Of a stretch of 27,695 nucleotides of DNA, positions 1 through 27,695 are shown piece after piece (position 1 is the stretch's first letter; every line of letters begins with the position of its first letter). The DNA comes from Chloroflexota bacterium. GTDB taxonomy: Bacteria > Chloroflexota > Anaerolineae > Promineifilales > Promineifilaceae. The notes beneath the pieces are model-generated. The model searched no databases. It saw nothing but the letters and a program-made list of their open reading frames with translations, and was not told the DNA's origin. The stretch spans positions 1 through 27,695 of the forward strand of contig JAAEOP010001184.1 of NCBI GenBank assembly GCA_024223125.1, in the 5' to 3' direction. The translations under genes and the position numbers were made by a program.

Positions 1-681
1 AGCCTGTTTACCCAAAACAGAGGCCATTTGTTGTGATAGTTCGCTGCTGTCGCCATTAAAGGGGGGAAGGCTGCCCGTATCACCCCATTGTTCACCCTGG
101 CGAATTTGTTCAATCGCTGTCAACACATCCGCATTGCGGGGGTCTAATTGCAAAGCCAGACGGCACGCTTGCAGCGCTTTATTTTGTTCTCCCTGGGTAT
201 TCAAAATGCGAGCCACCGCCAGGTATTCGCGGATGGCGTTATGAACGGCGCCTTGTTTTTGATAAATAGTTGCCAGCCGTTGGTGCGCTTTAAGCAAGTC
301 CGGTTCCAAACGGGCTGCCCGAACCCAATTATCCATAGCGTCATTCAAATGGCGGCGGCTGAGTTCCGCTTCGCCAATGGCCATGTAGGTTTTGCCGGCT
401 TCGCTTAACATGCCAAGTCGTTCTTGCATATCGGCTACCTGACGCAGATAGATGATGTCGCCCCGTGAATAACGGGCCGCTTTTTTAAAATTTCCCAGGG
501 CCTTTTCTAACTGGTTTAATTTACTGTAGGCAGTGCCTAAACCGTCATAGGGGGCTGGCTCATTGGGTATCAGTTTGGCAGCCGAGTCAAATTCTTTGAT
601 CGCTGCTTCCCATTTTTCATCCCATATATAGGAATGACCATTATTTAACGCTTCTTCGTAACGGGCACGATTGTTTGCCAC
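1..681 (-). CDS. TPR-repeat protein, 3' end cut by the window edge
   Basis: An open frame runs from a GTG at 679-681 to the window edge without a stop, giving 227 residues. The start is chosen because a GGAGG ribosome site lies about 8 bases upstream (complement of 689-693) and no other start has one. The protein is helical, with spaced A/Y/L/P patterns typical of tetratricopeptide repeats. At least four units are visible, for example around 'SAAKLIPNEPAPYDGLG', 'AARLEPDLLKAHQRLA' and 'ACRLALQLDPRNADVL'. No signal peptide or membrane segment is seen, so it is probably a cytoplasmic protein-interaction scaffold. The partner and the C-terminal domain, if any, are unknown. It is divergent from the membrane-protein gene at 886, and a TATACT-like -10 lies at 739-744 on the minus strand. 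Confidence 0.85.
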   Translation of the reverse strand, partial: MANNRARYEEALNNGHSYIWDEKWEAAIKEFDSAAKLIPNEPAPYDGLGTAYSKLNQLEKALGNFKKAARYSRGDIIYLRQVADMQERLGMLSEAGKTYMAIGEAELSRRHLNDAMDNWVRAARLEPDLLKAHQRLATIYQKQGAVHNAIREYLAVARILNTQGEQNKALQACRLALQLDPRNADVLTAIEQIRQGEQWGDTGSLPPFNGDSSELSQQMASVLGKQA

Positions 682-783
682 GCTAGAGCCTCCAGTACAA
701 AGTGTAAGTTATCGATGGACAGGTAAATCAGTTGAAAAAGTATACCACAGGGAAAAACGGAGGAAAAGCATTAAACATAAAAC

Positions 784-811
784 TTGACGGGGCTTTATGT
801 TATGGTAAGAT
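784..811 (+). promoter_or_regulatory. Candidate sigma-70-type promoter for the 886 gene
   Basis: TTGACG (784-789), a 16-base spacer and TAAGAT (806-811) form a near-consensus promoter reading toward the membrane-protein gene at 886. The predicted leader is about 70 bases. The divergent TPR gene probably uses a weaker TATACT box at 739-744, so the two genes would share this intergenic control region. The call rests on motif match only. Confidence 0.5.
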
Positions 812-885
812 ATTTGCAGCAGAGGGGATGTACATAATGTTAACTATTACATCCCGTTAAGGGGACATTATAAGGTAGGTGCCGC

Positions 886-1935
886 ATGGATTTTATTAAA
901 AAGAATATTCCTGTAATTTTAGCGTTTATCATTGGCTGGATTGTTGGGCTGGTTGTTTTTGGCTGGTGGTTATGGCCTGTTCAATGGACGGATGCGCCGC
1001 CTGACGCACTGTCTCCACAATACAAAGCAACGTATATTAATACAACGGCCGTTTCATATGCCCAAACACAAAACCCACAAGTTGTTACAAACGCTTTTGT
1101 CGGTTGGAGCGATCCTTATACTGACATTTGCACAGTAGCAACAACTACGCCTGATCCTAATATTCAGCCTGTCGTTTACAACGAAATGGCGAAGGTTGTG
1201 AGTGGAGGACAGGATTGTACGGCCGCGGCCGTGCCGCCCACAGAGGGAGGCGATGCAGCCCAACCGGCTGAAGATACCGGTGGGGCCAACACCACGGTTG
1301 TATTATTCTTGATTCTGATTCTGGTTGCGTTGGCTATTGCTATTGTGTACGTGCTACGCAAACGCCAATCGGTGACGGATGATGAGGAACCGAGTACATA
1401 TTATGACATGCCGGAAACAACCCCGGTGAGTGATGATGAAACGGCCGCTATTCCGTTAGCCCGTTTTCCCAGTAATTACAGCTACGGCCGTGATAACTTC
1501 GACGATTCGCACAGCATAGAAAATAACGCTGGCGACTTCATGGGTGAATGTGGCATTGGTATCTCCGAATCCATTGGAACCGACACGCCCAAAAATGTAA
1601 CCGCCTTTGAAGTCTGGCTTTTCGACAAGAACGATATCCGCACCGTTACCAAAGTGATTATGAGCGACCATGCCTTCTTTGACGACGCCCTCAAAGCCAA
1701 GTTAGCTCCCAAAGGGGAACCGGTGCTGGCACGTGAAAATGAAGTCATTGTTCTGGAAACAGCTTCCCTCATCGTCAATGCTGAAATCAAGCAAATGCAA
1801 TATGGTGAAAGTGGCAGCCTACCCCCGCAAAGCTTCTTTGAACGCTTCGAGATTGAGCTTTCTGCCTGGGCAAAAGATGCCGAGTTTAGCGAGCCAGATG
1901 TACAAGATCAGGTAGATGACCTGCTAGATTATTAA
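886..1935 (+). CDS. Unknown bitopic membrane protein with acidic cytoplasmic domain
   Basis: 349 residues that I do not recognise as a named family. Residues about 8-30 form a strongly hydrophobic first helix and residues about 137-157 a second one, followed by the positive-inside stop signal RKR (158-160). The roughly 105-residue loop between them would face outward. It contains two cysteines (82 and 111) that could form a disulfide and ends in a Gly/Ala/Pro/Glu-rich linker. After helix two comes an acidic linker (165-190), then a compact Phe-rich domain (about 195-340) with an alternating strand/helix look. Both termini would be cytoplasmic. The upstream AAGGTAGG is an acceptable ribosome site. 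Three copies of the genome's CGGCCG-core octamer family lie in the first 600 bases. It is a single gene with its own promoter and terminator. Function is unknown. Confidence 0.85.
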   Translation: MDFIKKNIPVILAFIIGWIVGLVVFGWWLWPVQWTDAPPDALSPQYKATYINTTAVSYAQTQNPQVVTNAFVGWSDPYTDICTVATTTPDPNIQPVVYNEMAKVVSGGQDCTAAAVPPTEGGDAAQPAEDTGGANTTVVLFLILILVALAIAIVYVLRKRQSVTDDEEPSTYYDMPETTPVSDDETAAIPLARFPSNYSYGRDNFDDSHSIENNAGDFMGECGIGISESIGTDTPKNVTAFEVWLFDKNDIRTVTKVIMSDHAFFDDALKAKLAPKGEPVLARENEVIVLETASLIVNAEIKQMQYGESGSLPPQSFFERFEIELSAWAKDAEFSEPDVQDQVDDLLDY

Positions 1936-1966
1936 GCCTCTTTGTTAAAGGATTCCCATAAAGATC

Positions 1967-3273: not shown

Positions 3274-3330
3274 GTACGAGGTAACGGGGTATTTGTCATC
3301 TTTTGTTACGGCCGTGTTAAGAAAACATGA

Positions 3331-3770
3331 TCATGTAGGCGTAAACAAATAGGGAAGACAGAACCCCAAGAGTGGATTACTCCAGGCAAAAGTCTGCCCG
3401 ATCAGCAACTCCCGCAGCGGGCTGAGTTGTAAAGAACGGCTCAACGCATCTAGGCTGCGAAACCAAAGGGTGAGGCTGGTTTTTTCGGTTTGTCCCACAC
3501 CAAAATCACCGCCGACTGGAGACATGGACACATGTCAGCTTGCACCTACCTGACCGCGGGCGATGAAGTTCACGGCCGTGTTCAAATCCCCCCTCGCTCC
3601 GGCCAGTAAGAAGAGGCCATCAGGCAAAAGGCGCGGGTAAGTTGGCGCTGCCATAATGTTGGTGCGTAATGATGCCACAACGGCGGCTCTCCAATCGCAT
3701 TGCTGAGTTGGGCCGCATGAACGAGACCGGGATGGGCTGCCTGTGCCCCCAACAATGAGGTGGTTTTTTG
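3331..3770 (-). pseudogene. Eroded protein-coding remnant, family not recognised
   Basis: Between the shape operon and the dGTPase-like gene about 440 bases still look coding on the minus strand but are broken. One frame reads SLLGAQAAHPGLVHAAQLSN and APTLWQRQLTRAF near 3660-3765. Another frame continues with RLLPDGLFLLAGARGDLNTA, meets an in-frame TGA at 3535-3537, and then goes on as MSPVGGDFGVGQTEKTSLTL to a stop at 3331. A frameshift plus a nonsense mutation in one old gene is the simplest reading. I do not know the original function. A 66-residue functional ORF at 3331-3531 is possible but has no visible ribosome site. Confidence 0.35.
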
Positions 3771-3782: not shown

Positions 3783-6248
3783 CTACTGATCAAATGGAGA
3801 ATCTACCTGCGGCGGTAAAATCACATCTTGCTGTTTAGCCTGTTCTAGAAAATTGGCCGGGATGTCAGGATTAAATGTTGTGGAATTACAGACTTGGTCT
3901 GGGGGGGGCGAGGTTTCCCCTTCGGCTACCTCGGTCGGGGGTGCATATTGTCCTACCTTATAATAGGCAGCCATAATATTGCAGGCGACTGGCGCTGCCC
4001 ACGCTGACCCTTCGCCGCCATGATACATAAATACGGAGACAACAATTTCTGGGTCTTCGGCCGAGGCATAGCCCACATACCAGGAATGAGTGGGCAGAAT
4101 TTGCCGGTTTATAATATCATCGTAGCTGCACCACCCTTTTTCAATGGCAATGTTATCGCAAAATTCGGCCGTTCCCGTTTTCCCGGCCGTGCTAATGCCC
4201 ACATTATCTAACCAATCTACATAGGTTGCCCCGGTAAAGAATTCTTCGGGGCTGATGTAAGTGTTTACTAACTGCATTGCATCGGCAATGATTCTGATAT
4301 ATTCGCGGCCCACATCCAGCGCATCAATAACAACGGGTTGGTAAATAGGATTTCCGGCCGTATCAAATTCAATATTAAACGTGGGATCGTCCAATGGGTT
4401 ACCGGCTGCGTCGGTTAGAGTTGTTTCGCCGTTTGGGCCGGGATGAGCGCGGGCCAATATCTGGCTGTTTTCATCCACAAATACCACATTGTCATCTTCA
4501 TCAGTCATATGATGCACGATGGAGGGCTGGTACAAAAAGCCGCCATTGGCAATAACGGCCGCCATCTGAGCCACCTGCATAGGTGTCGCCAACATAAACC
4601 CCTGACCAATACCCAAGTTATAATCATCCCCCGTTGACCACGGTTCACCAAATACACGAGCTTTCCAGGAACGATCTGGGGGTAGATTACCATCTGCCTC
4701 TAATGGTAGTTCAATACCTTGAATACGGCCGAAACCAAACTGCTCACCATATTTGGCAATCCCCTCCACACTCAACCCCTCCACAAACTCACCATCCTGA
4801 GCAAAACCGCCGCTGATCTTATAAAAATAAATATCACAAGAGTTTGCTAACCCGGAGGTAACATCCATTACTCCGTGCTCCCCTTTGGGAGTATTCAACA
4901 CCCAGCAGACAAACGTTTGGGCGCGGCCGGGATCGTTAGGTGCATACCGGTTGGGAATTGTTATTTCGCCGGGCGCTCGCAGTAGACGATTGGGCGACAC
5001 GACTCCTTCTTGCAACGCTCCGGCCGCCGGTACCAGCTTAAAAGTAGAACCAGGTGGATATTCGCTGCTGATGGCGTGGTTGACCAGGGGTGTATATTCA
5101 TTGCGAGCCAGACCTAGATAGTAATCCACCGGCACTTCCGATTGAAAACGGTTGTTATCAAAGGAGGGCAGGCTAACCATGGCTAGAATTTCGCCGGTTT
5201 TGGGGTTCATGGCTACGGCCGTGGCCTGACCTACTTCCACAAATGATTCTTGCCCGGTGATAAAGTCACGGTCAGGCACAGCTTCGCGGGCTTCCATCGC
5301 CTGCCGCAAAATTTCTGTGGCCAAAATCTGCAAATCCAAATCAAGGGTAAGGTGCATATTTAGCCCGGCTTGCGGTTCTGTTTCCAGTCCGATCTGGCGC
5401 AGTTCACGGCCGGTCCAATCCACTTCAATTTGCCGCTGCCCTTTAATGCCCGCTAATTCTAATTCCATTGAAGATTCCAGCCCCGACCAACCAACCCGAT
5501 CATCTCGTTCGTAACCGAGTGTAGTAATCCAGTTTTCATTGGGAATTGGCCCCATGTAGCCGAGAATAGGCGCTATATATTCGCCGCTGGGATAGTAACG
5601 CAGCGGTTCTGGTATCACGCGCACACCGGGCAAAAAGATGCTTTCTTGTTCAATTTGGTAAGCCTGGGTGATGGGTACATTGGCGGTGATAACGGCCGGA
5701 ATGTATTGGGCAAAACTGTGTTCCTGGACAATGGCTTCAATGCTGTCGGGTAGCTGCTGAACGACGTCGGCATTGTCTAATGTTTCTTCAACGGAGGCGC
5801 CAAATGCTTGGGCTAAACGGGAGTATGTTTGCACCAATTCAGGGTTGGCCGATTCAATTAGATTTTGTTGTTGGACTGTGTTTGTCACCGGGACACCGGT
5901 CAATAAGGCTAAACGTTCGTAAATAGCTTGTTGGGCAGCCTCCCCGTCTGGCAAAAAAGCGGGGGTGATAGTGACATTGAAGCTGGGCAGATTGACCGCT
6001 AGAGGCAACCCGTTGCGATCAAAGATGACACCGCGCGATGCGTCAGTTTCCAGGATAGCGAACTGATTTTCCTGGGCTTGTATGGTTAGTTCCTCCCCGC
6101 GAGATTGTTGAATCCAGTAAACACGGTAGAGGAGTAGGCCAAATATGATGATGATAAAGATACGAAAAAAGTATAGACGGCCGCGTACACCAACATCTTC
6201 AGCGGCCGCTTCTTGTTCTTCAGTATGTTCCCAACCAATGCGAGACAT
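3783..6248 (-). CDS. mrdA: Penicillin-binding protein 2 (elongasome transpeptidase)
   Basis: 821 residues, somewhat longer than typical PBP2. It is a class B penicillin-binding protein that cross-links peptidoglycan outside the membrane during cell elongation. A cytoplasmic N-terminus is followed by one helix (about 26-42) and the dimerisation/pedestal region (70-300). The transpeptidase domain has all three motifs: Ser401-Thr-Phe-Lys404 (SxxK, catalytic Ser401), Ser470-Cys-Asp472 (the SxN/SxD position, as in other PBP2 proteins) and Lys690-Thr-Gly692. A Gly/Asn/Asp-rich insert of about 50 residues (590-640) before KTG explains part of the extra length. The ATG is preceded by GGAGA. It is the last gene of the mreBCD operon; no rodA follows in this window. 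A 33-base hairpin separates it from mreD. Confidence 0.95.
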   Translation of the reverse strand: MSRIGWEHTEEQEAAAEDVGVRGRLYFFRIFIIIIFGLLLYRVYWIQQSRGEELTIQAQENQFAILETDASRGVIFDRNGLPLAVNLPSFNVTITPAFLPDGEAAQQAIYERLALLTGVPVTNTVQQQNLIESANPELVQTYSRLAQAFGASVEETLDNADVVQQLPDSIEAIVQEHSFAQYIPAVITANVPITQAYQIEQESIFLPGVRVIPEPLRYYPSGEYIAPILGYMGPIPNENWITTLGYERDDRVGWSGLESSMELELAGIKGQRQIEVDWTGRELRQIGLETEPQAGLNMHLTLDLDLQILATEILRQAMEAREAVPDRDFITGQESFVEVGQATAVAMNPKTGEILAMVSLPSFDNNRFQSEVPVDYYLGLARNEYTPLVNHAISSEYPPGSTFKLVPAAGALQEGVVSPNRLLRAPGEITIPNRYAPNDPGRAQTFVCWVLNTPKGEHGVMDVTSGLANSCDIYFYKISGGFAQDGEFVEGLSVEGIAKYGEQFGFGRIQGIELPLEADGNLPPDRSWKARVFGEPWSTGDDYNLGIGQGFMLATPMQVAQMAAVIANGGFLYQPSIVHHMTDEDDNVVFVDENSQILARAHPGPNGETTLTDAAGNPLDDPTFNIEFDTAGNPIYQPVVIDALDVGREYIRIIADAMQLVNTYISPEEFFTGATYVDWLDNVGISTAGKTGTAEFCDNIAIEKGWCSYDDIINRQILPTHSWYVGYASAEDPEIVVSVFMYHGGEGSAWAAPVACNIMAAYYKVGQYAPPTEVAEGETSPPPDQVCNSTTFNPDIPANFLEQAKQQDVILPPQVDSPFDQ

Positions 6249-6306: not shown

Positions 6307-6807
6307 TTATAGTTCAACACGATGGGGTGAAGTGGCTCGATCCAGACCAACCATCAGCCAATAGACAGGCAGCATAATGATGGCGTTGGCCAGGATGAGA
6401 GGTAAGAGGGTCACGGCCGTGTCAAAATCCGATAAGATGCCTAGAAGTCGCAAAAAGATGAGAGTCACAATCAGGTAAATAATGGTTGCCAGACCGGCCA
6501 ACAATAGGGGGAGTATAAAACGGCCGGCCGAGATTGCTTGTTGTATCCACAACACGGCCGCAATCGCTATCATGTACGATAAAGCTGTCAGTCCCAAGGG
6601 GGAAATAGAGAATAAATCCAACAGCAACCCGCCGATAAATCCCCAAATAATGCCTTCATTGACACCGCGCAGCAGCCCCCATGACAAAGCGATCAACAGT
6701 GGTAGTTGGGGCGCCAGACCAAAAATAGTGAAATAGGGCCACACGGCCGTTTGCAAAATCGCCAACACAGCCATCACCGGAATCGCCACATAGACAGACG
6801 AACTCAT
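6307..6807 (-). CDS. mreD: Rod shape-determining protein MreD
   Basis: 166 residues, the normal length of MreD, almost entirely hydrophobic with about five predicted membrane helices. It shows the family pattern of an N-terminal helix (VAIPVMAVLAILQTAVWPYF) and a central GLLRGVNEGIIWGFIGGLLLD stretch (about residues 44-64). MreD links the cytoplasmic MreB filament to MreC and the periplasmic cell-wall synthases. The identity is supported by its place between mreC and mrdA. The ATG has GGAG 12 bases upstream, slightly far but usable. Sequence conservation in MreD is low in general, so context carries part of the call. Confidence 0.9.
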   Translation of the reverse strand: MSSSVYVAIPVMAVLAILQTAVWPYFTIFGLAPQLPLLIALSWGLLRGVNEGIIWGFIGGLLLDLFSISPLGLTALSYMIAIAAVLWIQQAISAGRFILPLLLAGLATIIYLIVTLIFLRLLGILSDFDTAVTLLPLILANAIIMLPVYWLMVGLDRATSPHRVEL

Positions 6808-9330: not shown

Positions 9331-9735
9331 ATGGCAAGACAAGCATTATTTGAAGGATTAGTTTACGATGAAGCGGAACGGTTGGTGGAAACGGCCGTTG
9401 TCGGCGATGAAACCAATTATGTTATAGATGATAATGGCTTTCTGCGGCACATCAGTTCAGAAATGGTAGACCGGCAAATATTAGCCGTCTTTCTGGACCA
9501 GCTTAACAACAACCGTGATGTGGCTGTAGAGCAAACGCTTAAGATGATGGGCAAAGATGATTTTATGACCAAAGCGGCCGTAGACGCTTCTTTGCGTAAC
9601 ATTGACATGGACCAGATCATTGCCCAGGGCATCCCCCTGCAAGCCCGCGATATGCTAGGCATGATGGGCTTCCGCGTCACCATCAATTTCCATGGAGATG
9701 TAGTGGGTATTGATCAACCGGCTGCGGAAGAATAG
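9331..9735 (+). CDS. Conserved-looking small protein of unknown function
   Basis: 134 residues, no signal peptide or membrane segment, acidic. I do not recognise the family. The N-terminus (MARQALFEGLVYDEAERLVE) and the C-terminal strand-rich GFRVTINFHGDVVGIDQP flank a predominantly helical centre. The ATG at 9331 has AGG seven bases upstream. A 14-codon ORF starting at 9309 in another frame overlaps it and is probably chance. Codon use matches its neighbours, and it carries an ACGGCCGT octamer read in frame as Thr-Ala-Val. It is divergent from mreB, with a private leader containing a large palindrome, and has no co-directional partner. Confidence 0.8.
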   Translation: MARQALFEGLVYDEAERLVETAVVGDETNYVIDDNGFLRHISSEMVDRQILAVFLDQLNNNRDVAVEQTLKMMGKDDFMTKAAVDASLRNIDMDQIIAQGIPLQARDMLGMMGFRVTINFHGDVVGIDQPAAEE

Positions 9736-15525: not shown

Positions 15526-17955
15526 TTATTTCTCTACTGAATCTGTACCATCTTCATCGTCATCCCCAAAATCTTTTAGGCCTTGAGCCAGTTGTAGCAG
15601 GTGAGTTTGAACCAGATGATGAACTGTGCCTTCAGGATAACGGCCGTCGTCCCCCCGCACACCAGCCGGGAAATCCATCAATAACTCAATCCCTTCGTCA
15701 ATTGTTGTCACCGGCCAGATGTGGAATTTGTTTTGGGACACGGCCGTGATCACATCCTCATGCAGCATCAAATTATCCATATTACTGGCAGGGATCATTA
15801 CGCCTTGTTTGCCTGTTAAGCCCCGCGCCTGACAGAGACGGAAAAAGCCTTCAATCTTCTCATTCACCCCGCCAATGGGCTGCACCTCGCCCCGTTGGTT
15901 CACCGACCCGGTGACAGCGATGCCTTGTTTGATCGGCCGTCTACTCAGACTGGACAGCAGCGCGTACAACTCCGTAGATGAAGCGCTGTCCCCATCTACG
16001 CCACTGTAATTTTGCTCAAAGGTGATGCTGGCGTTTAACGATAGGGGTTGATTCTGCGCGTAAGTTCCGCCCAGATACCCTTGCAGTGTCAGGACGCCTT
16101 TTTCATGAATAGGGCCAGACATTTCTGTTTCCCGTTCAATGTGGGTAATGCCGTCGTCACCCATGTAGGTACGCACGGTAATGCGCCCCGGTTGACCAAA
16201 GGCATAATCGCCCATATTCAAAACTGACAGCCCGTTGACCTGGCCTACCACACGGCCGTCTGTAGCCACAAAAATCGTCTCATCCAGAAAATATTCAAAG
16301 ATTTCTGACTCCGCGCGGTTGACCCGGAAGATGCGTTCTTCCAGAGCTTGTTGTACATCGGCGGCCGAAACTGTGTCCCGGTCGTTATCTCCGGCCCAAT
16401 AACTCGCTTCCCGTACCAGATCAGCAATCTCACCAAAACGAGTGCTTAACTTGCGTTGGTCATTAGCCAGACGGGAACCATGTTCGACGATTTTGGCTAC
16501 GGCCGTGTGATCAAAATGGTGCAGGTCCTCTTCCTGGCAACGCCCGGCTATAAAATTGGCATAAGCCCACATTCCATCTTCCTCGCGGGGCATAGAGGTG
16601 TTAAAGTCAGCCCGTACCTTAAACAGGCTGGCAAAATCTTCATCCTGTGCATACAACATATAGTAAAGTGACAGGCTGCCTGTTAGAATAATTTTTACCG
16701 ACAAAGGGATCGGTTCCGGATCCAACGATTTAGCCATAACCTGACCCTGTTCTAACAGGGCTGGCGGTTGCGCGTAAATTTTCTGTTCTTTCAGCGCTCG
16801 CTTTAAGGCTGGCCATGCGGCCGGATTTTTGAACAAATCATGCCCATTGATAATGAGATACCCTCCATTAGCCCAATGCAGACTGCCACATTTAATATTG
16901 GTGAAATGGGTAAAGACATGACCGGAAGCCATTTCATACTCAATGCGGCCGAACAACCCATGAAACGTGGGGTTTGATTCCCGGATAACCGGCATTCCTT
17001 TGGCGTCTACATTGTTGACCAGCAAATTGACCTCATAACGGCGCAGGTCAATCTCCTCGGTGGTGTTTTGCGTATCTACCGGCGGGGCAAAATCGCTAAT
17101 CTGGGTCAACACATCTTTATGAACTTCTTCCAAATATTCCATCACTTCATCGTAATCTTTATAAGCTTCTTTGATGTCGTCGAAATGGCGCTGCACGGCC
17201 GCCGTTGCCACCTCATGGTCAACCTCTTTCATCTGCTGCTGGGCTGTTAAATCCATCTCATGAAGCTGTTCCCCAATTGCATTCAACTCTTCCATTAGCC
17301 CCTGGAGGGTTTCTTGCAAGGCTGCTTGTTGATCGGGCGGCATTTGCTGCAGCATTTGGTTAAGTTCTTGCGGTGAGAGTTGACGGCCGTCAACTGTTGG
17401 CGCAATCATAAACCCTGATGGCGTCTGCGTGAGGGCAAACCCCTGCTCTTGAGCTTTCTTGCTTAACTGTCCCAGTAGTGTGTTTTGTTGCTCCTCCATT
17501 TCTTTGCTGACTGCGGCAATCGTTTCCTGGTACGTTTCAGAATCAAACGCCTGGGGTAACTCGCGGCGTAAATCCTGAATGAGTTTTCTCATGCGTGTCT
17601 GGAACTTTTCCCCATCACCGGCCGACAATGAAATAGCTCGCGGCTGATGCGGTATTGCAAAATGATGCACATACAACCAATCATCGGGTATGGGTTTATC
17701 CTTAGCCTGCTTTCGTAAAAAATGAGCAATGGCAGTAGTTCGTCCTGTACCTGTAGCCCCCACAGCAAAAATATTGTATCCCTCACTCTGAATCTCCACG
17801 CCAAAGGCAATGGCCCTTGTCCCCCGTGGCTGTCCAATAATGCGGGTATTTACCTCTAACTCGGCCGTGGATTCAAAATCAAATAATGTTACGTTGCAGA
17901 CGAAGCGCAGCTTTTCTGGGGCAAGGGGCTGTAAGTGTGAAACTGTTTCAGACAT
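15526..17955 (-). CDS. LonB-like ATP-dependent protease
   Basis: 809 residues from ATG 17955, chosen because GGAGATG lies seven bases upstream; in-frame starts at 17961 and 18021 lack proper spacing. The N-terminal part has a Walker A (GATGTGRTT, about 66-74). A large helical insert rich in Glu/Gln (about 150-290), probably coiled coil, follows before the rest of the AAA+ core. The C-terminal S16 domain has Ser657 in DGDSAS and Lys700 in GGVNEKIEG. They lie 43 residues apart, the same spacing as Ser679/Lys722 of E. coli Lon. It belongs to the COG1067-type Lon family, not classical LonA (no LonA N-domain). It degrades damaged or regulatory proteins. The gene is convergent with rfbH, 27 bases apart, without a visible terminator. 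Confidence 0.93.
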   Translation of the reverse strand: MSETVSHLQPLAPEKLRFVCNVTLFDFESTAELEVNTRIIGQPRGTRAIAFGVEIQSEGYNIFAVGATGTGRTTAIAHFLRKQAKDKPIPDDWLYVHHFAIPHQPRAISLSAGDGEKFQTRMRKLIQDLRRELPQAFDSETYQETIAAVSKEMEEQQNTLLGQLSKKAQEQGFALTQTPSGFMIAPTVDGRQLSPQELNQMLQQMPPDQQAALQETLQGLMEELNAIGEQLHEMDLTAQQQMKEVDHEVATAAVQRHFDDIKEAYKDYDEVMEYLEEVHKDVLTQISDFAPPVDTQNTTEEIDLRRYEVNLLVNNVDAKGMPVIRESNPTFHGLFGRIEYEMASGHVFTHFTNIKCGSLHWANGGYLIINGHDLFKNPAAWPALKRALKEQKIYAQPPALLEQGQVMAKSLDPEPIPLSVKIILTGSLSLYYMLYAQDEDFASLFKVRADFNTSMPREEDGMWAYANFIAGRCQEEDLHHFDHTAVAKIVEHGSRLANDQRKLSTRFGEIADLVREASYWAGDNDRDTVSAADVQQALEERIFRVNRAESEIFEYFLDETIFVATDGRVVGQVNGLSVLNMGDYAFGQPGRITVRTYMGDDGITHIERETEMSGPIHEKGVLTLQGYLGGTYAQNQPLSLNASITFEQNYSGVDGDSASSTELYALLSSLSRRPIKQGIAVTGSVNQRGEVQPIGGVNEKIEGFFRLCQARGLTGKQGVMIPASNMDNLMLHEDVITAVSQNKFHIWPVTTIDEGIELLMDFPAGVRGDDGRYPEGTVHHLVQTHLLQLAQGLKDFGDDDEDGTDSVEK

Positions 17956-18049: not shown

Positions 18050-18874
18050 TCAATTGTCTAAAGTGGGCGCCGCCAGGTTAAAGACGGTTTGGGCGTAAGC
18101 AAGTAGACGATCTTCCGCTTGGGTGTCTCCTACCAATTCGGCGTAGGGGAAGATTGTGCCTTCCCAGCCCTCGGTATGCCAGCTTGTGCCTGGTGGCAGG
18201 AGATTATCTAACAATGCCTCGGCCGCAAACGGCCAGGGGTTGGAGAAGAAGTATGGCTCTACACTATCGCTGCCAGGGTAAAAGCCCAGGTTTATTTGGG
18301 ATTGGGCTGTTTGCGTTTGGCCGTGTTCTTCATGGGTTAGGGTGTGGGTTCCAAACCATTCAAAAGCCATATCAAAACCATGCGGCCATATTTGGGTTGG
18401 CCCTGCGGGGCGGGGCAAGGTGGCTTTATGTTTGTTGAAGATGCGCTCAACGTGAACCAATATCTGGAAGTAGTGGGCGGCCATTTCAGGGTTGTACTCA
18501 CGGCCGTCGTCGTTCTCAAACTTTTCACGGGCATACGCACCTTCCAAACCAAATTCAGCCGCCGCAGCAATGATCTGATTGCCCATCTGTGTACTAGTTA
18601 ATCCGCTGGTCATATCAAATTCACAGTCGTCGCCACCGCTACTGAACATGACAATTTTATGGTGAAGGAGATCCATACGTAAGGCTAGGGTACGGCCGTT
18701 GGGCAAAGGCACATTGTCCGTCACTAACCCATCCGGACGCAGCTTCAAACCAAGATGCCACCAGTTTGGATGCTGAATGGCATGTGTGCGGGGAATAGTT
18801 CCCATTGCCTGACTATACGTGTGTAATGTTGTGCGCGTGGGGTTAAACTCGGTCAAAGAAGAAAAAATCGTCAT
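18050..18874 (-). CDS. DUF5996 family protein
   Basis: 274 residues from ATG 18874, which has a strong GGAGGTTGT ribosome site; upstream in-frame starts at 18937 and elsewhere have none. The layout matches DUF5996 proteins as I know them: an N-terminal TLHTYSQAMGTIPRTH segment, then NWWHLGLKLRPDGLVTDNVP, a FEIDFDFIDH-like strand here read as LALRMDLLHHKIVMF, and a C-terminal PYFFSNPWPFAAEALLDNLL with a WHTEGWEGTIFPY motif rich in Trp/Tyr. The protein is soluble, with no known catalytic residues and no established function. It lies 94 bases upstream of the Lon-like protease in the same direction, so co-regulation is possible but a separate promoter is visible for the latter. Confidence 0.8.
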   Translation of the reverse strand: MTIFSSLTEFNPTRTTLHTYSQAMGTIPRTHAIQHPNWWHLGLKLRPDGLVTDNVPLPNGRTLALRMDLLHHKIVMFSSGGDDCEFDMTSGLTSTQMGNQIIAAAAEFGLEGAYAREKFENDDGREYNPEMAAHYFQILVHVERIFNKHKATLPRPAGPTQIWPHGFDMAFEWFGTHTLTHEEHGQTQTAQSQINLGFYPGSDSVEPYFFSNPWPFAAEALLDNLLPPGTSWHTEGWEGTIFPYAELVGDTQAEDRLLAYAQTVFNLAAPTLDN

Positions 18875-19645: not shown

Positions 19646-19673
19646 TTGTTAATATTCACGGCCGTGTTAGAAT
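19646..19673 (+). promoter_or_regulatory. Candidate uvrA promoter
   Basis: TTGTTA (19646-19651), a 16-base spacer and TAGAAT (19668-19673) read toward uvrA. The spacer itself contains an ACGGCCGT octamer (19658-19665). The leader would be about 190 bases and include the 89-base inverted repeat at 19744-19832. No LexA-type box is recognisable. Confidence 0.45.
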
Positions 19674-19872: not shown

Positions 19873-22764
19873 ATGTCCTTAGACAAAATCATTGTACGCG
19901 GCGCTCGCGCCCATAATCTCAAAAATATAGATGTTGAAATTCCCCGCGATAAATTGGTAGTCATCACCGGGCTGTCCGGCTCCGGTAAATCATCCCTCGC
20001 TTTTGACACTATCTTTGCCGAAGGCCAACGGCGTTATGTTGAGTCTTTGTCTGCTTATGCTCGCCAATTTTTGGGGCAGATGGAAAAACCGGATGTAGAC
20101 CAGATTGAAGGTCTCAGCCCGGCTGTTTCCATTGACCAGAAAGGCGTCAGCCACAACCCCCGTTCCACGGTGGGTACGGTGACTGAAATTTACGATTATC
20201 TGCGTCTGCTCTATGCTCGTGTGGGCACACCTCATTGTCCCCAATGCGGCCGTCCGGTCATGCCCCAATCGGCCGAGCAAATTGTAGATGATGTCGCCGC
20301 CATGCCCCTGAACAGCCGCATTCAAGTTTTGGCCCCCCTGATTAAAGATCGTAAGGGGCATCATCTAGGCGTGTTTGATGACGTTCGTAAGGCCGGCTTT
20401 GTGCGTGTGCGCGTCAATGGGGAAGTGCGTGCGGTAGATGAGACAATCGAACTGGATCGGTACAAAAACCATACGATTGAAGCTGTGGTAGATCGGCTGG
20501 TTATTCGTCACAACCCAGACGACGGCAGTGAAGACGCCCAGGCCGCCAAGTCCCGCCTGACAGATTCCATCGAAACAGCCCTGACGTTGGGCAACGGTAT
20601 CGTCATCATCAACGACGTCACTGACCGGAAACAGGAAAAAGATCATCTCTATTCAGAGCATCTTTACTGTCCGTATGATGGAACCAGTATTTCAGAAATT
20701 GAACCGCGTACTTTCAGTTTCAACAGTCCGCATGGAGCCTGCCCGGCCTGCCAGGGTTTGGGCACAACCAAACAAATTGACGCCAATTTTATTGTGCCCA
20801 ATAAAGAGCTGTCTCTGGAAAATGGGGCCATTGTGGGCTGGCCGACGGAAGATAAGCAAGGGTATTATTGGCAGTTGTTACAGGCTACGGCCGTGCATTT
20901 CAACATTGACATCAATACCCCCGTTAAGAATCTGACAGAGGCGCAGATGCGAATTTTGTTGTATGGTAGCGGACAAGAAGATGTGGTTGTTACCTATAAA
21001 AACCGCAACGGAGATACACGCCATTACAAGACAAAGTATGAAGGTGTCATCAATAATTTGTGGCGGCGGTATAATGAATCTACCTCTGATTATGTGCGTG
21101 ATAAGTTAGAAGCGTATATGTTGGATCAACCCTGTGAAACTTGTAACGGTTCTCGCTTAAACCCAGTTGCCCGTTCGGTAGATATTGATGGTCAGACGAT
21201 TAGTGAGGTGACAGCAACGGCCGTGCTGCGCCTCCTGCCCTGGGTAAATTCCCTCCGGGATGACGGCAACACGCCTCTGACACCCCGCCAGCAAATGATC
21301 GCCCGTTCCATCCTCAAAGAAATTTATGATCGGGTACAGTTCATGGTGAATGTGGGGCTGAATTACCTGACGCTGGATCGTAGGGCCAGCTCCCTCAGCG
21401 GCGGCGAAGCGCAGCGGATTCGTCTGGCAACCCAGATTGGTAGTCAGTTGATGGGGGTGTTGTACGTGCTGGATGAACCCAGTATTGGCCTGCACCAACG
21501 CGACAATGCCCGTCTGATTCGTACCTTGAAAGGGATGCGCGACCTGGGTAACACCGTTCTGGTGGTGGAGCATGATGAAGACACAATGCGAGCGGCCGAT
21601 TGGCTAATTGACCTGGGACCAGGCGCGGGATTGCATGGGGGTGAAGTGGTCGCTGAAGGGACGCCGGATTTCATTACCGATCATGAAGAATCACTTACAG
21701 GGGCTTATTTGAGCGGCCGTCAAACCATACCCTGGCCTAAGAAACGTCGCCAGGGAACTGGCGAATGTCTAAACATTATCGGCGCCAAAGAGAATAATCT
21801 GAAAGATGTAGATATATGTGTGCCCTTGGGACAGTTTGTGTGTGTAACCGGGGTCAGTGGCAGTGGTAAAAGTTCCTTTCTCATTGAGATTTTGGGCAAG
21901 AAGTTAAACCAGTATTTTTACAAATCCAAAGCGCTGCCGGGTAAACATAAACTGATTGAGGGGCTGGAACATCTGGATAAGGTAATTGAGATTGACCAAT
22001 CCCCCATCGGCCGTACACCCCGCTCTAATCCGGCTACCTATACTAATCTGTTTAATCCCATCCGGGAGCTATTTGCCAATTTGCCGGAGAGTAAGGTGCG
22101 TGGTTATAAGCCGGGTCGTTTTAGTTTTAATGTGAAAGGCGGCCGTTGCGAAGCATGTCAGGGTCAAGGGCAAAACCGGATTGAGATGCAATTTCTGCCC
22201 GATATTTATGTGCCTTGTGATGTGTGCCACGGCCAACGGTATAACCGGGAAACATTGCAAGTTCACTATAAGGAAAAAAATATCGCTGATGTGTTGGAAT
22301 TGAGCGTAGAGGAAGCGATAGACTTTTTTGAAAACATCCCCCGTATCAAACGGAAACTGAAAACGATGATGGATGTGGGGCTGGGCTACATTACGTTGGG
22401 CCAGCCGGCGCCTACCCTCAGCGGCGGCGAGGCACAGCGCATTAAATTGAGCCGGGAGCTTTCTAAAATTGCTACCGGCCGCACAATTTATATTTTGGAT
22501 GAACCCAGCGTGGGTCTACATTCCCATGATGTGGCTAAATTGATTTTGGCCTTAAACCGGCTGGTGGACAAGGGCAATACAGTTATCATCATTGAGCATA
22601 ATCTGGATATTATCAAGGTGGCGGACACGATTATTGATTTGGGGCCAGAAGGGGGCGACCAGGGTGGCGATATTGTCGCTTTTGGTTCACCGGAAGAGGT
22701 AGCGCAGGTTGAGGAGTCGTATACGGGTCAATTTTTGAAGCAACATTTGAACGGCCGTGTTTGA
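19873..22764 (+). CDS. uvrA: UvrABC system protein A
   Basis: 963 residues from ATG 19873. The longer frame from 19711 would include the inverted-repeat element and is rejected, because the [20 protein letters not shown] start matches UvrA. UvrA is the damage-sensing ATPase of nucleotide excision repair and loads UvrB. Visible motifs are the first Walker [10 protein letters not shown] (33-41), a CPYDG...CPACQGLG zinc module, the ABC signature [12 protein letters not shown] with Walker [14 protein letters not shown], the second Walker [10 protein letters not shown], the second zinc finger CEACQGQGQ...CDVCHGQ, and the second signature [12 protein letters not shown] with [13 protein letters not shown]. 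Both ATPase halves are intact. There is no ribosome site; the start follows an A-rich run. Confidence 0.97.
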
Positions 22765-23401: not shown

Positions 23402-23929
23402 TTGAGGGTCGCAGTTGGTTCGCTTAATCCGATAAAGGTCACGGCCGTAACCACCACATTTATCCGTATCTGGTCTGATATTGACGTGGTTCCCGTCTCT
23501 GTGCCCAGTGGCGTCAGCGCTATGCCGATGAGTGATGAGGAAACAATGTTAGGGGCGCGTAATCGGGCAACGGCCGCTCGTGAAGCAGTTGCGGCCGATT
23601 TTGGCGTAGGGCTGGAAGGTGGCGTACAAAGGGAATCATTTGGTCTGGCGTTGATGGGTTGGGTGGTGGTTGTGGATGGTAACGGCCGTTACGGCATTGG
23701 CGGTTGTGCCCGCCTTCAACTCCCTGATCAGATTGCCCAACGTGTCTTAAGTGGTGAAGAACTTGGCGCCGTCATGGATGATCTTTTGCAAGATCACAAC
23801 AGTAAACAAAAAGGGGGCGCTGTGGGAGCCTTAACTAACAATCTGGTACTGCGAGGGGAATCGTTTGCTACGGCCGCAGCATATGCCCTGGCCCCCTTTA
23901 TCTCCTCTAACTTTTACCACAACCCTTAA
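23402..23929 (+). CDS. Inosine/xanthosine triphosphatase (YjjX/DUF84 family)
   Basis: 175 residues from TTG 23402. The family start RVAVGSLNPIKVTAV is recognised, together with SGVSAMPMSDEET, GARNRATAA, the acidic-glycine GVGLEGGV signature and the C-terminal KQKGGAVGALTNN...R. These enzymes hydrolyse deaminated purine nucleoside triphosphates (ITP, XTP) and so clean the nucleotide pool. Two starts are possible. A GTG at 23384 overlaps the regulator's stop as GTGA. A TTG at 23402 has GGAG eight bases upstream and yields the family-like N-terminus. The intervening bases are GATTGGA word-repeat, which thus supplies the ribosome site. It probably shares the regulator's transcript. Confidence 0.88.
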   Translation: MRVAVGSLNPIKVTAVTTTFIRIWSDIDVVPVSVPSGVSAMPMSDEETMLGARNRATAAREAVAADFGVGLEGGVQRESFGLALMGWVVVVDGNGRYGIGGCARLQLPDQIAQRVLSGEELGAVMDDLLQDHNSKQKGGAVGALTNNLVLRGESFATAAAYALAPFISSNFYHNP

Positions 23930-23939
23930 ACGGCAACGG

Positions 23940-24235
23940 ATCTCAACAGTTTGCTGATATGTGTCCCCAAAAACGCATCGGAACCAAAACGGATTTGCAG
24001 CGTCTCCAGCAATATTTCCCGTATTCCTCACATTCCTTGCTCCATACCGCGTCGCATAGCTATCCACTCAATACTGGTTATGTAAGATCATTTCTTTCTC
24101 TTCATATGCCCCTACATCATTCATAAACTGTTTCTCAATTTCCGAGGGTAAGGCCATCACCCAGTCAATAAACCGGAATAATTCTGAGTTTCGATTGTGG
24201 CAGAGGTTTTCAGGCAAATTTTGGCCGCGTTTCAT
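23940..24235 (-). pseudogene. C-terminal remnant of an Rpn/DUF4351-type nuclease-transposase protein
   Basis: On the minus strand a 55-residue frame (24235-24068) contains ELFRFIDWVMALPSEIEKQF and AYEEKEMI, the usual segment before the C-terminal coil in Rpn-like (PD-(D/E)XK nuclease family transposase) proteins. After a frameshift near 24075-24085 the next frame continues correctly with TSIEWIAMRRGMEQGM, a TGA stop, then GIREILLETLQIRFGSDAF and HISKLLRSVA. The family tail is therefore complete but has one frameshift and one stop, and the nuclease domain is missing. This is a dead fragment left beside the methylase-nuclease module. No other gene is seen in 23930-24310. Confidence 0.65.
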
Positions 24236-24310
24236 TCATATTACCGGGGGTCGCTCATCTGTGCTAAACTTGATTGTAATAAAAGTGTGATAATGATAGG
24301 TTATTTTGAT

Positions 24311-26260
24311 ATGCGTATAGATAGGCAGTTCGATGCCGCCTTTGCCGATGAACTAGCAATGTTTGAATCGTATAATAAACATTTATATCGGCCGAATTCC
24401 TATCTGCATAAATGGTGGGCGCGGCGCTGCGGTACAACGTTTCGCACGATTCTGAAACATCTAGTTACAGATGAGACGAAACAAGATTACTATTCGGCCG
24501 CAGGCTTAGAAGACACCATTATCCTTGATCCGATGATGGGTGGGGGAACCACATTGCATGAGGCAATTCGGCTTGGCGCTAACGTTATTGGAGCCGATAT
24601 TGATCCCATTCCTGTGTTACAAGCCAGGGCAACCCTTTCAACTGTGCCGCTGGCCGAGTTAGAAAAAGCCTTCCACCATTTTTACAAGACATTACATGCC
24701 GAATTTTCACATCTCTATCAGACGCCCTGCCCCTATTGTGGACGGCTTCATGAATGGCGCTTTATGCTTTATGGTTTGCAACGACATTGTGATTGCCGTC
24801 AGGTGTTATCAGTAGATTCGTTCATTCTTCGCTACCACAATGATGGGTCCGTCATCCATATTGACCCTAGCTCTCATTCCATTTTGCAGAACGACCAATG
24901 TGTGGTTGAACCTGAACTAAATGAACCCCGAGTGCCATTGGTTGAAAAATCGGACAAGCTATGCGCAACGTGCCAACGGCCGTATCGAGACAATTTACAC
25001 ATCCCTTATTACCAACGTTATATACCCATCACAACAGCCGGGAAATGCCCTGAACATGGCTTGTTCTTTAATGCCATTCACCATATTGAGCGAGACACCA
25101 TAACACAGGCTAATAAACAACGCGCAAATTTAACTTTTTCAGCAGCCGATTTCCATATTGTTCCAGGGCCAAAATCCAGAAGTTTATTAGACCGGCAAAT
25201 CAACAGTTACCTGGATGTTTACAGCAGTCGTCAACTGTTACTACTGCATAAGGCAATTGAGATTTTACCCCAATTTGATCCCCTCATTCGTTTGAATCTA
25301 GCCTTATTAGTTTCCACGTCGCTTGAATTTAATTCGCTTCTTTGCGGTTATAAGGGGACAAAAAAGAAGCGTCCTGGCGCTATCCGGCATACATTTGCCC
25401 ATCATGCTTATTCTTTTCCACACACGGCCGCTGAAAACAACCCCCTTTATCCCAAAAGAGCCTCCGGGAATTTAAAGAATCTTTTTCATAGTCGTATTGC
25501 GCGCGGCCGTAAATGGGCTACACAGCCTGAAGAACGGCGTATTGTAGAGGGAAAGGCAGAAAAGGTGCTGATTGAGGGAGAAACTGATTCTGGCACGGAG
25601 GTGTTTGATTTTGCTAACTTAGCCGACGGCCGTCGCCGCTTCATGCTCATTCAAGGCTCTTCGTCTAATCTGAATTTACCTGATAACTGTGTAGATTTTA
25701 TCGTAACTGATCCTCCCTATTTTGACAGCGTACAGTACAGCGATTTAGCCGCTTTTTTCCGGGCCTGGCTACAAAAATTACTGCCCCAAGATGTGGATTG
25801 GCATTATGAATTAGATGACGCCGCCGTAGACCAATACGCCAATAATAATGGTCAATATGATCATGTATTAGGACAAATTTTTTTAGAATGTCACCGGGTT
25901 TTGAAGAGTAACGGCCGTCTCATCTTCACCTTTCACCATTGGAACCCTAACGGTTGGTCGGCATTAACAAAATCCTTAAAACGAGCCGATTTTATTTTAG
26001 TGAATCGTCATGTCGTTCATGCAGAGAATCCATCATCAGTCCACATTGTGAACCAAAAGGCGCTGCTCCATGATGTCATTTTGGTACTGGCTCCAGCCGA
26101 ATCCATCATTACGCCTGAATGGAAACTTCCTTATACTATAGACACGAAAGGCAGTCAGGCATTTTGTCGAGATTGCGCTACGGCGATGGGTTGGTTGCTG
26201 AATGAGAATTTACCTGATGAAGAAGTTGACGCTCATTGGATGAGGTTGTTACCTAAATGA
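24311..26260 (+). CDS. Zinc-ribbon adenine-specific DNA methylase (COG1743-like)
   Basis: 649 residues from ATG 24311. Earlier in-frame ATGs at 24197 and 24293 add unconserved residues overlapping the nuclease remnant and lack ribosome sites; the true start is uncertain. The N-terminal HLYRPNSYLHKWWARRCGTT is typical of COG1743/DUF1156-like methylases. Motif I is DPMMGGGTT (73-81), binding S-adenosylmethionine, with GADIDP (94-99) after it. A long region follows with Cys140-x2-Cys143...Cys160-x-Cys162 and Cys218-x2-Cys221...Cys246 pairs, which look like zinc ribbons. Catalytic motif IV is DPPY (467-470), indicating amino-methylation (N6-adenine most likely). The stop overlaps the NurA start. 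It probably modifies DNA as part of a defence or maintenance module. Confidence 0.87.
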   Translation: MRIDRQFDAAFADELAMFESYNKHLYRPNSYLHKWWARRCGTTFRTILKHLVTDETKQDYYSAAGLEDTIILDPMMGGGTTLHEAIRLGANVIGADIDPIPVLQARATLSTVPLAELEKAFHHFYKTLHAEFSHLYQTPCPYCGRLHEWRFMLYGLQRHCDCRQVLSVDSFILRYHNDGSVIHIDPSSHSILQNDQCVVEPELNEPRVPLVEKSDKLCATCQRPYRDNLHIPYYQRYIPITTAGKCPEHGLFFNAIHHIERDTITQANKQRANLTFSAADFHIVPGPKSRSLLDRQINSYLDVYSSRQLLLLHKAIEILPQFDPLIRLNLALLVSTSLEFNSLLCGYKGTKKKRPGAIRHTFAHHAYSFPHTAAENNPLYPKRASGNLKNLFHSRIARGRKWATQPEERRIVEGKAEKVLIEGETDSGTEVFDFANLADGRRRFMLIQGSSSNLNLPDNCVDFIVTDPPYFDSVQYSDLAAFFRAWLQKLLPQDVDWHYELDDAAVDQYANNNGQYDHVLGQIFLECHRVLKSNGRLIFTFHHWNPNGWSALTKSLKRADFILVNRHVVHAENPSSVHIVNQKALLHDVILVLAPAESIITPEWKLPYTIDTKGSQAFCRDCATAMGWLLNENLPDEEVDAHWMRLLPK

Positions 26261-27483
26261 CGCTTGAATATGAAAAATTATTCCCTCAAATTAACAGTAT
26301 GGTGACAGCGGCCGTCTCCCGGCAGCGGCAGTTAGCTACACAACAAGGCGAGATCAGCCAAAAGTTAAACGCTCACGCGGCCGACCGAGACACCATCAAC
26401 AAAAGCTTAGACCTGGCATTAACCCGTACAGACAATAAATTGTACGCCGCCCGGCCGCATAACAAGTATGATCATGAACTGTTAAATGCGGGGGTGGATG
26501 CGTCGGTTGTGCCGGACACTGCCGTTATCATCGGCGCAGACGGTTCCCAAATCATGCCAGACCGGCACGCCCCTTTTTTGTATTCCCTCATCAACATCGG
26601 CATTATCATCTATTACCACGGCGTCGCCAAAGCGCCTGACACGTTGACCAAACCCACCCTCAAGTTTCCCGACGGCGAACTGCGAGCAAATGAAACCTTG
26701 TTTACCTCGGCCGATGTCAGTATAGCCCGTGACCTGGCTGAAATTGCCACCCTCAGCCAGACGGTTTGCGAACAAAGCCGCCAGACAGAAGACCTCGTTT
26801 TAGGGTTGTTGGACCAACGGCTTTTGTACCGGGGTGAAGCGGCCGTATTGCGAGATTGGTTGGAATCATTACAACAAGTAGAGGCATGTTATGAGGAAAA
26901 CGGCCGTGCCTACCTCACCGGCTTTATCAGTAACCCTGGCACCAGCGCCGTCGTCAACATGTTGCGTGCCCTCGATATTGACCGCATTGATACGGAAACG
27001 GGCGAGTTTTTGTTGGAGCCAGAAACACTCATCAAAAGCAATGTGGGGCTGACGGATGCGGATATTTTTGGCGATATTTTGCAACCGGGCCAGCGCAGTA
27101 CCGTCTTCATCAATATTTCTGATCTCAACACCCAATTTGGCAAACGGGGGCAGGAGATTTGCTTTTTTTATTTGAATGTGGCTAATAACGGCCGTCACAT
27201 TTCACGAGTAGATTTTCCAAAGTGGCTGGCAGATGATGTGACGGCCGTAAACCGCATCCACGCTCTCGCCATCAACCAATGCAAATTTGAATACCCCTAC
27301 GTCCTCACCCGCGCCGATGAAATTGCCGTCATCCTGTCTGAAGACCGCGACGCTTTTGAAAACATGATTGCCATGCGTATGGGGCCACAGTTTGCGCTGC
27401 GCCGCCACAGCCCCAAACAAAGTGGCAAATACGATACTCGCAGCAGCCGAACGCGATTTCAGGACCGTAAGGGTAGTAAATGA
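26257..27483 (+). CDS. nurA: NurA-family nuclease
   Basis: 408 residues; ATG 26257 overlaps the methylase stop as ATGA, so translation is coupled. NurA is a metal-dependent 5'-3' exonuclease with an RNase H-like fold that normally works with the HerA translocase in DNA end resection. Visible features are the first metal motif ADGSQIMPDRH (Asp95), a long helical region, LLDQRLLYRG (Asp186, matching the NurA second acidic motif), SRVDFPKWLA (316-325) and the closing YPYVLTRADEIAVI (346-359), which corresponds to the NurA C-terminal segment. The basic tail (390-408) is Arg/Lys/Ser-rich. HerA is not in this window. The family call rests on these motifs and is fairly firm; the defence role is inferred from context. 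Confidence 0.85.
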   Translation: MTLEYEKLFPQINSMVTAAVSRQRQLATQQGEISQKLNAHAADRDTINKSLDLALTRTDNKLYAARPHNKYDHELLNAGVDASVVPDTAVIIGADGSQIMPDRHAPFLYSLINIGIIIYYHGVAKAPDTLTKPTLKFPDGELRANETLFTSADVSIARDLAEIATLSQTVCEQSRQTEDLVLGLLDQRLLYRGEAAVLRDWLESLQQVEACYEENGRAYLTGFISNPGTSAVVNMLRALDIDRIDTETGEFLLEPETLIKSNVGLTDADIFGDILQPGQRSTVFINISDLNTQFGKRGQEICFFYLNVANNGRHISRVDFPKWLADDVTAVNRIHALAINQCKFEYPYVLTRADEIAVILSEDRDAFENMIAMRMGPQFALRRHSPKQSGKYDTRSSRTRFQDRKGSK

Positions 27484-27532
27484 AACTGATTATTCATGGT
27501 AAAATGGCGAAAGTTACTGTTTGGAGGTTTTC

Positions 27533-27695
27533 ATGGCAAACAAAAAGATAGCTTTTGGCTGGTATGGAGGCAAGTACAGTCACCTCAATTGGTTGTTGCC
27601 CCTGCTGCCCTATACAACTCATTACTGTGAGCCATTTGGCGGTTCCGCGGCCGTTATCATCAACAGAAACCCATCCCCCGTAGAAACATACAATG
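27533..27695 (+). CDS. Dam/D12-family N6-adenine DNA methyltransferase, 3' end cut
   Basis: 54 codons are present before the window ends. ATG 27533 has GGAGG five bases upstream. The N-terminus carries FGWYGGKYSHL (8-18), the GGK motif of the D12 class, and CEPFGGSAAVIINR (32-45), the AdoMet-binding motif I. These are diagnostic of Dam-like enzymes that methylate the N6 of adenine. The sequence up to the edge is intact. The catalytic DPPY and target-recognition parts lie beyond the edge, so its specificity cannot be judged. It lies 49 bases after NurA in the same direction and is probably part of the same operon. Confidence 0.88.
   Translation, partial: MANKKIAFGWYGGKYSHLNWLLPLLPYTTHYCEPFGGSAAVIINRNPSPVETYN

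Follow-up and report, generated by a model that had tools for sequence, protein, structure and literature searches.

A palindromic octamer abundant in Chloroflexota DNA and in phages, proposed as a highly iterated palindrome with a new sequence

The stretch of DNA analysed here (27,695 bases; hereafter the window) carries 36 exact copies of the palindromic octamer ACGGCCGT, the commonest 8-mer in it, among genes that include those for PBP2, MreB, UvrA and a Lon-like protease, together with putative MreC/MreD-like frames named by position only. Judged by its sequence, the window is Chloroflexota DNA, near Promineifilaceae/Ardenticatenaceae, and not cyanobacterial. The PBP2 protein had 119 other matches listed, at 66-80% identity, and the Lon-like protein 119, at 60-71% identity; named relatives among these were Chloroflexi bacterium, Anaerolineae, Ardenticatenaceae, Ca. 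Promineifilaceae and Ca. Leptofilum. A NurA nuclease gene overlaps a DNA methylase gene by 4 bases (24197-27483), which hints at an operon; the methylase weakly resembles the defence methylases MADS, Hma and DUF1156. The frames 886-1935 and 9331-9735 gave no Pfam match at E 0.001. The octamer sites, to which no strand is assigned, and the methylase gene are as follows.

1045..1052, octamer, exact match
1484..1491, octamer, exact match
3308..3315, octamer, intergenic, exact match
3572..3579, octamer, intergenic, exact match
5215..5222, octamer in the PBP2 gene; TAV here, TAV in 0/21 aligned relatives (mostly AAV or AVV)
6413..6420, octamer, exact match
6743..6750, octamer, exact match
9391..9398, octamer, exact match
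10497..10504, octamer, exact match
10577..10584, octamer, exact match
12412..12419, octamer, exact match
12946..12953, octamer, exact match
13586..13593, octamer, exact match
13971..13978, octamer, exact match
14160..14167, octamer, intergenic, exact match
14786..14793, octamer, exact match
15112..15119, octamer, exact match
15640..15647, octamer in the Lon-like gene; DGR here, DGS in 16/24 near relatives
15740..15747, octamer in the Lon-like gene; TAV in 24/24 near relatives
16252..16259, octamer in the Lon-like gene; DGR here, EGS/EGG/EGA in 14/24 near relatives
16499..16506, octamer in the Lon-like gene; TAV in 23/24 near relatives
17383..17390, octamer in the Lon-like gene; DGR in 11/24 near relatives
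18500..18507, octamer, exact match
18692..18699, octamer, exact match
19658..19665, octamer, intergenic, exact match
20887..20894, octamer, exact match
21217..21224, octamer, exact match
22751..22758, octamer, exact match
23441..23448, octamer, exact match
23682..23689, octamer, exact match
24976..24983, octamer, exact match
25626..25633, octamer, exact match
25911..25918, octamer, exact match
26900..26907, octamer, exact match
27188..27195, octamer, exact match
27241..27248, octamer, exact match
24197..26260, plus strand, DNA methylase of the N6/N4 class (PF01555), the sole methylase among the 12/19 genes whose families were looked up

The exact count agrees with that of the original prediction on this stretch, made by eye, and all eleven coordinates named there are correct. 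Base composition (order 0) leads to an expectation of 0.39 copies, in line with the roughly 0.4 then given for equal base use, while Markov models of order 2 and order 3 lead to 0.86 and 2.2, respectively; at 0.86, the Poisson probability of at least 36 copies is about 5e-45. The next six commonest 8-mers of the window all overlap ACGGCCGT. The hexamer CGGCCG occurs 104 times against 16.6 expected and, as had been noticed, often with one changed flank (GCGGCCGT 14, ACGGCCGC 12, TCGGCCGT 5, ACGGCCGA 5); since GGCC outside CGGCCG amounts to only 93 occurrences, it is CGGCCG, and foremost the full octamer, that is enriched. In 500 rounds of synonymous-codon shuffling, the 19 genes chosen in the window yielded 2.8 octamers on average and never more than 8, compared with the 32 observed, so that codon usage is not the cause of the excess, just as the original prediction had held. 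The sites are distributed over the entire 27.7 kb, with 19 in plus-strand genes, 13 in minus-strand genes and 4 between genes (3308, 3572, 14160 and 19658), and their spacing is irregular (coefficient of variation 0.8, minimum 53).

Column counts around the window sites revealed no strong flank outside the 8 bases, the largest bias being G in 35/72 strand readings four bases outside, and no conserved sequence beyond the core of the kind found in mobile palindromic repeats like the repetitive extragenic palindromic (REP) or miniature inverted-repeat transposable element (MITE) types, in keeping with the earlier claim that the octamer is not a mobile unit. It is thus extremely improbable that the octamer owes its abundance in this window to chance, to base composition, to a bias in codons or amino acids, or to dispersed copies of a mobile palindromic unit, as nothing in favour of such causes survives the Markov and synonymous-shuffle controls, and the sites lie, without a strong flank, in two main frames, on both strands and in gaps. 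HIP1 (GCGATCGC), the highly iterated palindrome (HIP) of cyanobacteria that has reportedly been known since 1995 (Robinson et al.), has 0 copies in the window. As a separate observation, the palindromic hexamers GTCGAC, CTCGAG, GGGCCC, CGATCG and TTCGAA are absent from the window and TCGA occurs 28 times against 77 expected, which suggests restriction avoidance.

By reading frame, the 32 genic sites divide into 16 encoding TAV, 14 encoding [N/D/Y]GR and 2 encoding xRP (one-letter amino-acid code); the earlier statement that sites occur on both strands and in gaps stands, while their occurrence in all reading frames is only nominal. We then considered those peptide contexts that are able to hold the octamer without amino-acid change, and took as occupancy the share of them that actually hold it. 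In the window, occupancy reaches 16/18 for TAV, 14/15 for [Asn/Asp/Tyr/His]-Gly-Arg and 2/4 for the third frame, where codon usage would lead to 2.0, 0.7 and 0.1 sites, respectively. The peptides themselves are also affected, as TAV occurs 17 times against 2.5 expected from composition, and the reversed peptide VAT 3 times against 2.5. In the Lon-like gene, both TAV positions common to relatives hold the octamer, the third shared context being NDR in the window, and two of the three DGR sites replace other residues of most near relatives. The TAV excess and the Lon replacements argue for a pressure towards the octamer strong enough to go with protein changes. In the PBP2 and Lon relatives, octamer-type peptides form too weak an imprint to tell a shared signature; the window Lon has 5 of them and its 24 nearest relatives 4-6.

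The octamer also fills 13 viral contigs and so is not limited to this window; such a limitation is what the original prediction would have counted against itself. Three scans of viral contigs for three ACGGCCGT with short gaps gave 50 loci, to which we applied a stringent threshold (8 or more sites, 10 times the order-2 expectation and 8 per 10 kb). This was passed by 20/50 ACGGCCGT loci, by 30/88 HIP1 loci and by 1/29 loci of the letter-reversed octamer TGCCGGCA, an imperfect control because there are a few viral stretches in which it, too, is enriched. The 20 passing loci correspond to 13 viral contigs and 12 distinct phages, G015 and G018 being the same phage (32 pairs of open reading frames (ORFs) at 100%), and the remaining 30 are short, weakly enriched, or G+C-rich chance matches. 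Over whole records, ACGGCCGT occurs 85 times in 33.5 kb (G004), 226 times in 100 kb (G005), 106 times in 46 kb (G008), 89 times in 57 kb (G009) and 227 times in 65,512 bases, or once per 289 bases (G006), with 1, 5, 1, 7 and 1 copies of the letter-reversed octamer in G004, G005, G006, G008 and G009, respectively. Density in the 13 phage records ranges from 9.5 to 35 per 10 kb and is above the window's 13 in 12/13; the sites are distributed over the viral records counted, and in two phages they abut, with starts 8 bases apart. In 8/13 contigs (G004, G005, G006, G009, G011, G018, G019 and G021) we identified terminase, portal or tape-measure proteins, the terminases belonging to different families, and G008 and G020 gave no tailed-phage hallmark among the four proteins tried.

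Occupancy in the phages was computed from open frames of at least 450 bases. It amounts to 68/71, 81/85 and 32/37 for the three frames in G006, and to 382/422, 327/402 and 120/200 against about 67, 20 and 4 expected for 11 phage records summed; these sums omit G015, G016 (5/7, 2/5, 3/4) and G017 (4/4, 1/3, 0/1), and inclusion of the latter two would change little. TAV peptides in G006 number 71 and reversed VAT peptides 3, each against 8.2 expected from composition. The letter-reversed octamer showed nothing like this occupancy. HIP1-rich viral stretches (185 frames, 30 stretches) resemble the ACGGCCGT phages in the near-complete use of permitted contexts, with 273/284, 146/187 and 64/103 for GCGATCGC, and their occupancy by ACGGCCGT is 0/66. 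These 30 stretches, among the 88 of the HIP1 triple scan (L116-L203), hold up to 54 HIP1 per 10 kb, and HIP1-carrying phages seem common in IMG/VR.

We also screened the 223 fetched loci of at least 2.5 kb for each of the 256 palindromic octamers, with a minimum of 6 copies and of 15 times expectation. ACGGCCGT was retained at 66 loci, GCGATCGC at 34, TGCCGGCA at 5 and two further octamers at one locus each, a result that shows contrast and not frequency because ACGGCCGT, GCGATCGC and TGCCGGCA had been chosen by the scans and the loci overlap. Viral stretches 15-170 times rich in TGCCGGCA (L213, L221, L229, L212 and L218) are possibly yet another HIP. In addition, L180 holds 25 CGAGCTCG in 13.6 kb and L046 holds 14 GTGGCCAC in 13 kb, both well over expectation.

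One-letter variants of the octamer, counted with full octamers masked, concentrate at the first and last letters in the window and in 11 phage records, as the HIP class requires. Deviations in the window number 44 against 4.6 expected at the outer position and 5 against 8.4 at the inner positions; in the pooled phage records, the outer changes A>G, A>T and A>C number 402 against 75, 212 against 44 and 173 against 70, respectively, and inner variants lie at 0.5-1.5 times expectation. As a side observation, G005 and G019 show an excess of central C-to-T deviations (G005, 4G>A 10 against 3.1; G019, 3G>A 15 against 3.3), and these are the two of the 11 counted phages with a C5 methylase match over cut-off (L083:6405-8108 and L098:17156-18970). 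The excess fits deamination of 5-methylcytosine and, as a post hoc finding among 132 cells, is a lead only.

Site conservation between related genomes, which the original prediction had proposed to compare, was assessed between related phages. The comparison covered 24 pairs of viral records, in which 61 ORF pairs were aligned at 50-90% identity, and took other octamers with six G+C as controls. The G015/G018 pair was left out. The octamer is kept far oftener than the controls, at 80/120 against 4,018/14,110 in the 70-90% band and at 50/110 against 980/10,515 in the 50-70% band. Where the peptide is unchanged, it is kept at 76/84 and 48/51, respectively, against 3,872/7,964 and 896/3,177. CGGCCG with other flanks is kept as the octamer at 50/166 (70-90%) and 14/132 (50-70%), near controls overall, and at 50/92 and 14/35 with unchanged peptide, somewhat above them. 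Given that the exact octamer is kept and CGGCCG with other flanks stays near controls, the constrained or regenerated unit is the full octamer. Pairs of at least 90% identity, omitted from the main set, gave 58/61 against 2,912/4,787, and HIP1 in HIP1-rich viral stretches was kept at 14/18 against 98/538 in 4 aligned pairs only. Conserved sites were counted from both sides and the aligned pairs are not independent; binomial values were therefore not used.

In its density (1,300 per Mb) and composition-based observed/expected ratio (93), both measured over the 27.7 kb of the window, ACGGCCGT falls within the published HIP1 range of 300-2,700 per Mb and 55-228 (PMC4390886, Table 2, in the part of that paper available). 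Like HIP1, it is a palindromic octamer found at coding and non-coding sites, with overlapping 8-mers next in rank, and its deviations concentrate in the first and last letter, as described for HIP1 in the same part of PMC4390886. The proposed likeness to HIP1 thus stands for density, enrichment, overlap pattern, deviation position, lack of a mobile flank and independence of codon usage, and fails for the sequence itself, as ACGGCCGT differs from HIP1 in its core (CGGCCG, not CGATCG), its outer letters (A/T) and its lineage (Chloroflexota, not cyanobacteria). Without GATC, it is no Dam-type N6-methyladenine site. DNA uptake sequences and Chi sites are likewise short, exact words whose number in coding DNA far exceeds chance; they are non-palindromic and directional, unlike ACGGCCGT, and phage carriage and a symmetrical near-miss pattern do not fit them. 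The alternate cyanobacterial HIPs (GGGATCCC, TCGATCGA, GGCGCC, rCCGGy and GCsGC) are, like ACGGCCGT, G+C-rich palindromes; they are lineage-specific replacements that reach about 500-2,500 per Mb (more for rCCGGy), a possible methylase exists for each, and ACGGCCGT is not among them (PMC4390886). The main text of that paper gave no match for ACGGCCGT, chloroflex or phage.

The phages bear directly on whether the octamer is the target of a host restriction-modification system. CGGCCG is a palindromic hexamer, the kind that type II systems read, and palindromic restriction sites tend to be avoided in phages. Such sites also tend to be avoided in host genomes (PMC4687349, available part). Since window and phages are full of the octamer, and the phages carry more of it and not less, a plain restriction target is very unlikely.

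A selected landmark read by a DNA-binding protein (a Chi-like self mark by which a nuclease would be stopped or recombination directed, or a nucleoid or segregation site), with phage DNA lacking the octamer being destroyed or badly copied, would explain why the exact octamer and not the hexamer is kept and why most of the 13 phage records are denser than the cell, and the window has a NurA nuclease gene. Statistical analyses of HIP1, as cited in the part of PMC6604393 available, favoured selection. We nevertheless consider this explanation doubtful, because nearly every permitted context is filled, with sites that even abut in two phages, which is more than a landmark needs, and because the amino-acid differences at the Lon and PBP2 sites would mean that thousands of sites are each under selection. 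A palindrome, moreover, cannot give direction, unlike known Chi sites. Regular spacing, expected for a nucleoid protein, was sought in the window and the phages and was not found, which speaks against the nucleoid role that the original prediction had listed; the methylation target also listed there may still hold. With random spacing and nearly complete occupancy making a spacing-limited function unlikely, and restriction unlikely as well, what remains is a process acting site by site, either biased repair or selection on every site.

It is also conceivable, if rather unlikely, that window and phages belong to unrelated hosts and that ACGGCCGT rose as a HIP more than once, which would be compatible with a repair or a landmark mechanism alike. 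Window and phages share no genes beyond one 62-residue, 37% match, and the most frequent palindromic flanks differ among the phages (AACGGCCGTT in G004, G011 and G021; TACGGCCGTA in G006; GACGGCCGTC in G019; CACGGCCGTG in G012 and G018), although species within a single host group could also differ in their flanks. Against separate origins stands the same exact octamer among 256 possible palindromic ones. So does the background: a scan of genome contigs for the Lon-like protein gave 11 loci from Dadabacteria, Deltaproteobacteria and Proteobacteria at 38-51% identity and led to 57 genomes from the phylum of G003, which hold 0-96 ACGGCCGT each, the maximum being 96 in 2.0 Mb (about 48 per Mb). 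The terminase search gave no host name among the 120 matches listed, the nearest phage-collection records to the octamer phages are below 60% identity with mixed hosts, and a PBP2-alignment search of the viral contigs found no relative. The commonest base pair just outside the octamer also varies among G004-G021 (A/T, T/A, G/C or C/G), perhaps as a host fingerprint.

Overall, we propose that ACGGCCGT is a HIP with a new sequence, in Chloroflexota, kept by a repair bias that is linked to modification and extends to phage DNA, and we put the probability of this reading at about 50%. We infer a single host-side process behind the window and phage sites, with methylation and repair as its means. 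The octamer would arise in place by point substitution and not as a mobile unit; the host-side process would recognise the core CGGCCG and convert near matches to the full octamer, site by site, regardless of spacing and even at amino-acid cost, and would act in the same way on phage DNA replicating in such hosts. The most likely machinery would be a solitary methylase modifying CGGCCG, coupled to a biased mismatch repair through which mutations towards the octamer would be kept and mutations away from it reversed. Biased repair is favoured over selection on every site because it requires no benefit from any one site, accounts for the amino-acid costs and would extend to phage DNA present in the same cell. 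As the modifying enzyme, the window methylase is a candidate by its presence alone.

Several points weigh against this proposal. The window methylase has only weak similarity to solved methylases (best E 0.03), and it carries a DPPY motif, a feature met more commonly in enzymes that act on adenine. Neither the window (12/19 genes) nor 17 viral records, which were searched for the C5 and N6/N4 families only and may be fragments, gave a methylase known to be specific for CGGCCG; the C5 family was matched in 5 of them (4 over cut-off) and the N6/N4 family in 7 (5 over), and a homologue of the C5 enzyme is present in L224, a stretch without the octamer. Phage-borne methylases as makers of the signature were set aside, most records having no match to the two families tried. 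According to the available part of PMC4390886, four HIP1-rich cyanobacteria have no CGATCG methylase, and Elhai's model of G-methyl-C directed repair saturates near one site per kb; G006 has one octamer per 289 bases at random spacing, and the G-methyl-C rule leaves the outer A/T unexplained, so that the published repair model would need change. The outer letters are themselves a preference, as GCGGCCGC, with 0 copies in G006, is above expectation in G008 (31 against 6.9). Occupancy is partly circular because the motif itself creates TAV peptides, and a correction by way of Lon sites whose peptide is common in relatives too would have just three to draw on, which is too few. Drive and selection cannot be told apart by conservation alone, and it is by the octamer and nothing else in their sequences that window and phages would be linked.

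Among the matches listed, a literature search, with subscription papers mostly outside it, showed no report of a HIP outside cyanobacteria or of HIPs in phages; in the text searched, the sole whole-word match to ACGGCCGT was a paper on DNA encryption, in agreement with the earlier remark that it has no named equivalent. An unpublished remark in the available part of PMC3497702 holds that octamers reach the frequency of HIP1 in very few bacterial genomes. In the part of PMC3025956 available, S. elongatus PCC 7942 is given 7,402 HIP1 against 60 expected, and HIP1 scarcity is used to mark foreign genes, of which the ACGGCCGT phages show the opposite.

HIP1 has no agreed function, and a second HIP outside cyanobacteria, with another core, lets common features be asked. 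Tentatively, and with somewhat less confidence than in the reading above, HIPs could be what generally results when a host encodes a sequence-directed conversion that rewrites its own DNA and that of phages alike until nearly every possible codon context is filled, ACGGCCGT in Chloroflexota being a second, independent case and the phages its clean read-out. HIP-bearing phages at near-complete occupancy are small genomes in which gain and loss are countable. The share of permitted codon contexts that are occupied offers a simple way of telling a process that works site by site from a spacing-limited one. The octamer may also serve as a cheap sequence mark for phage-host matching.

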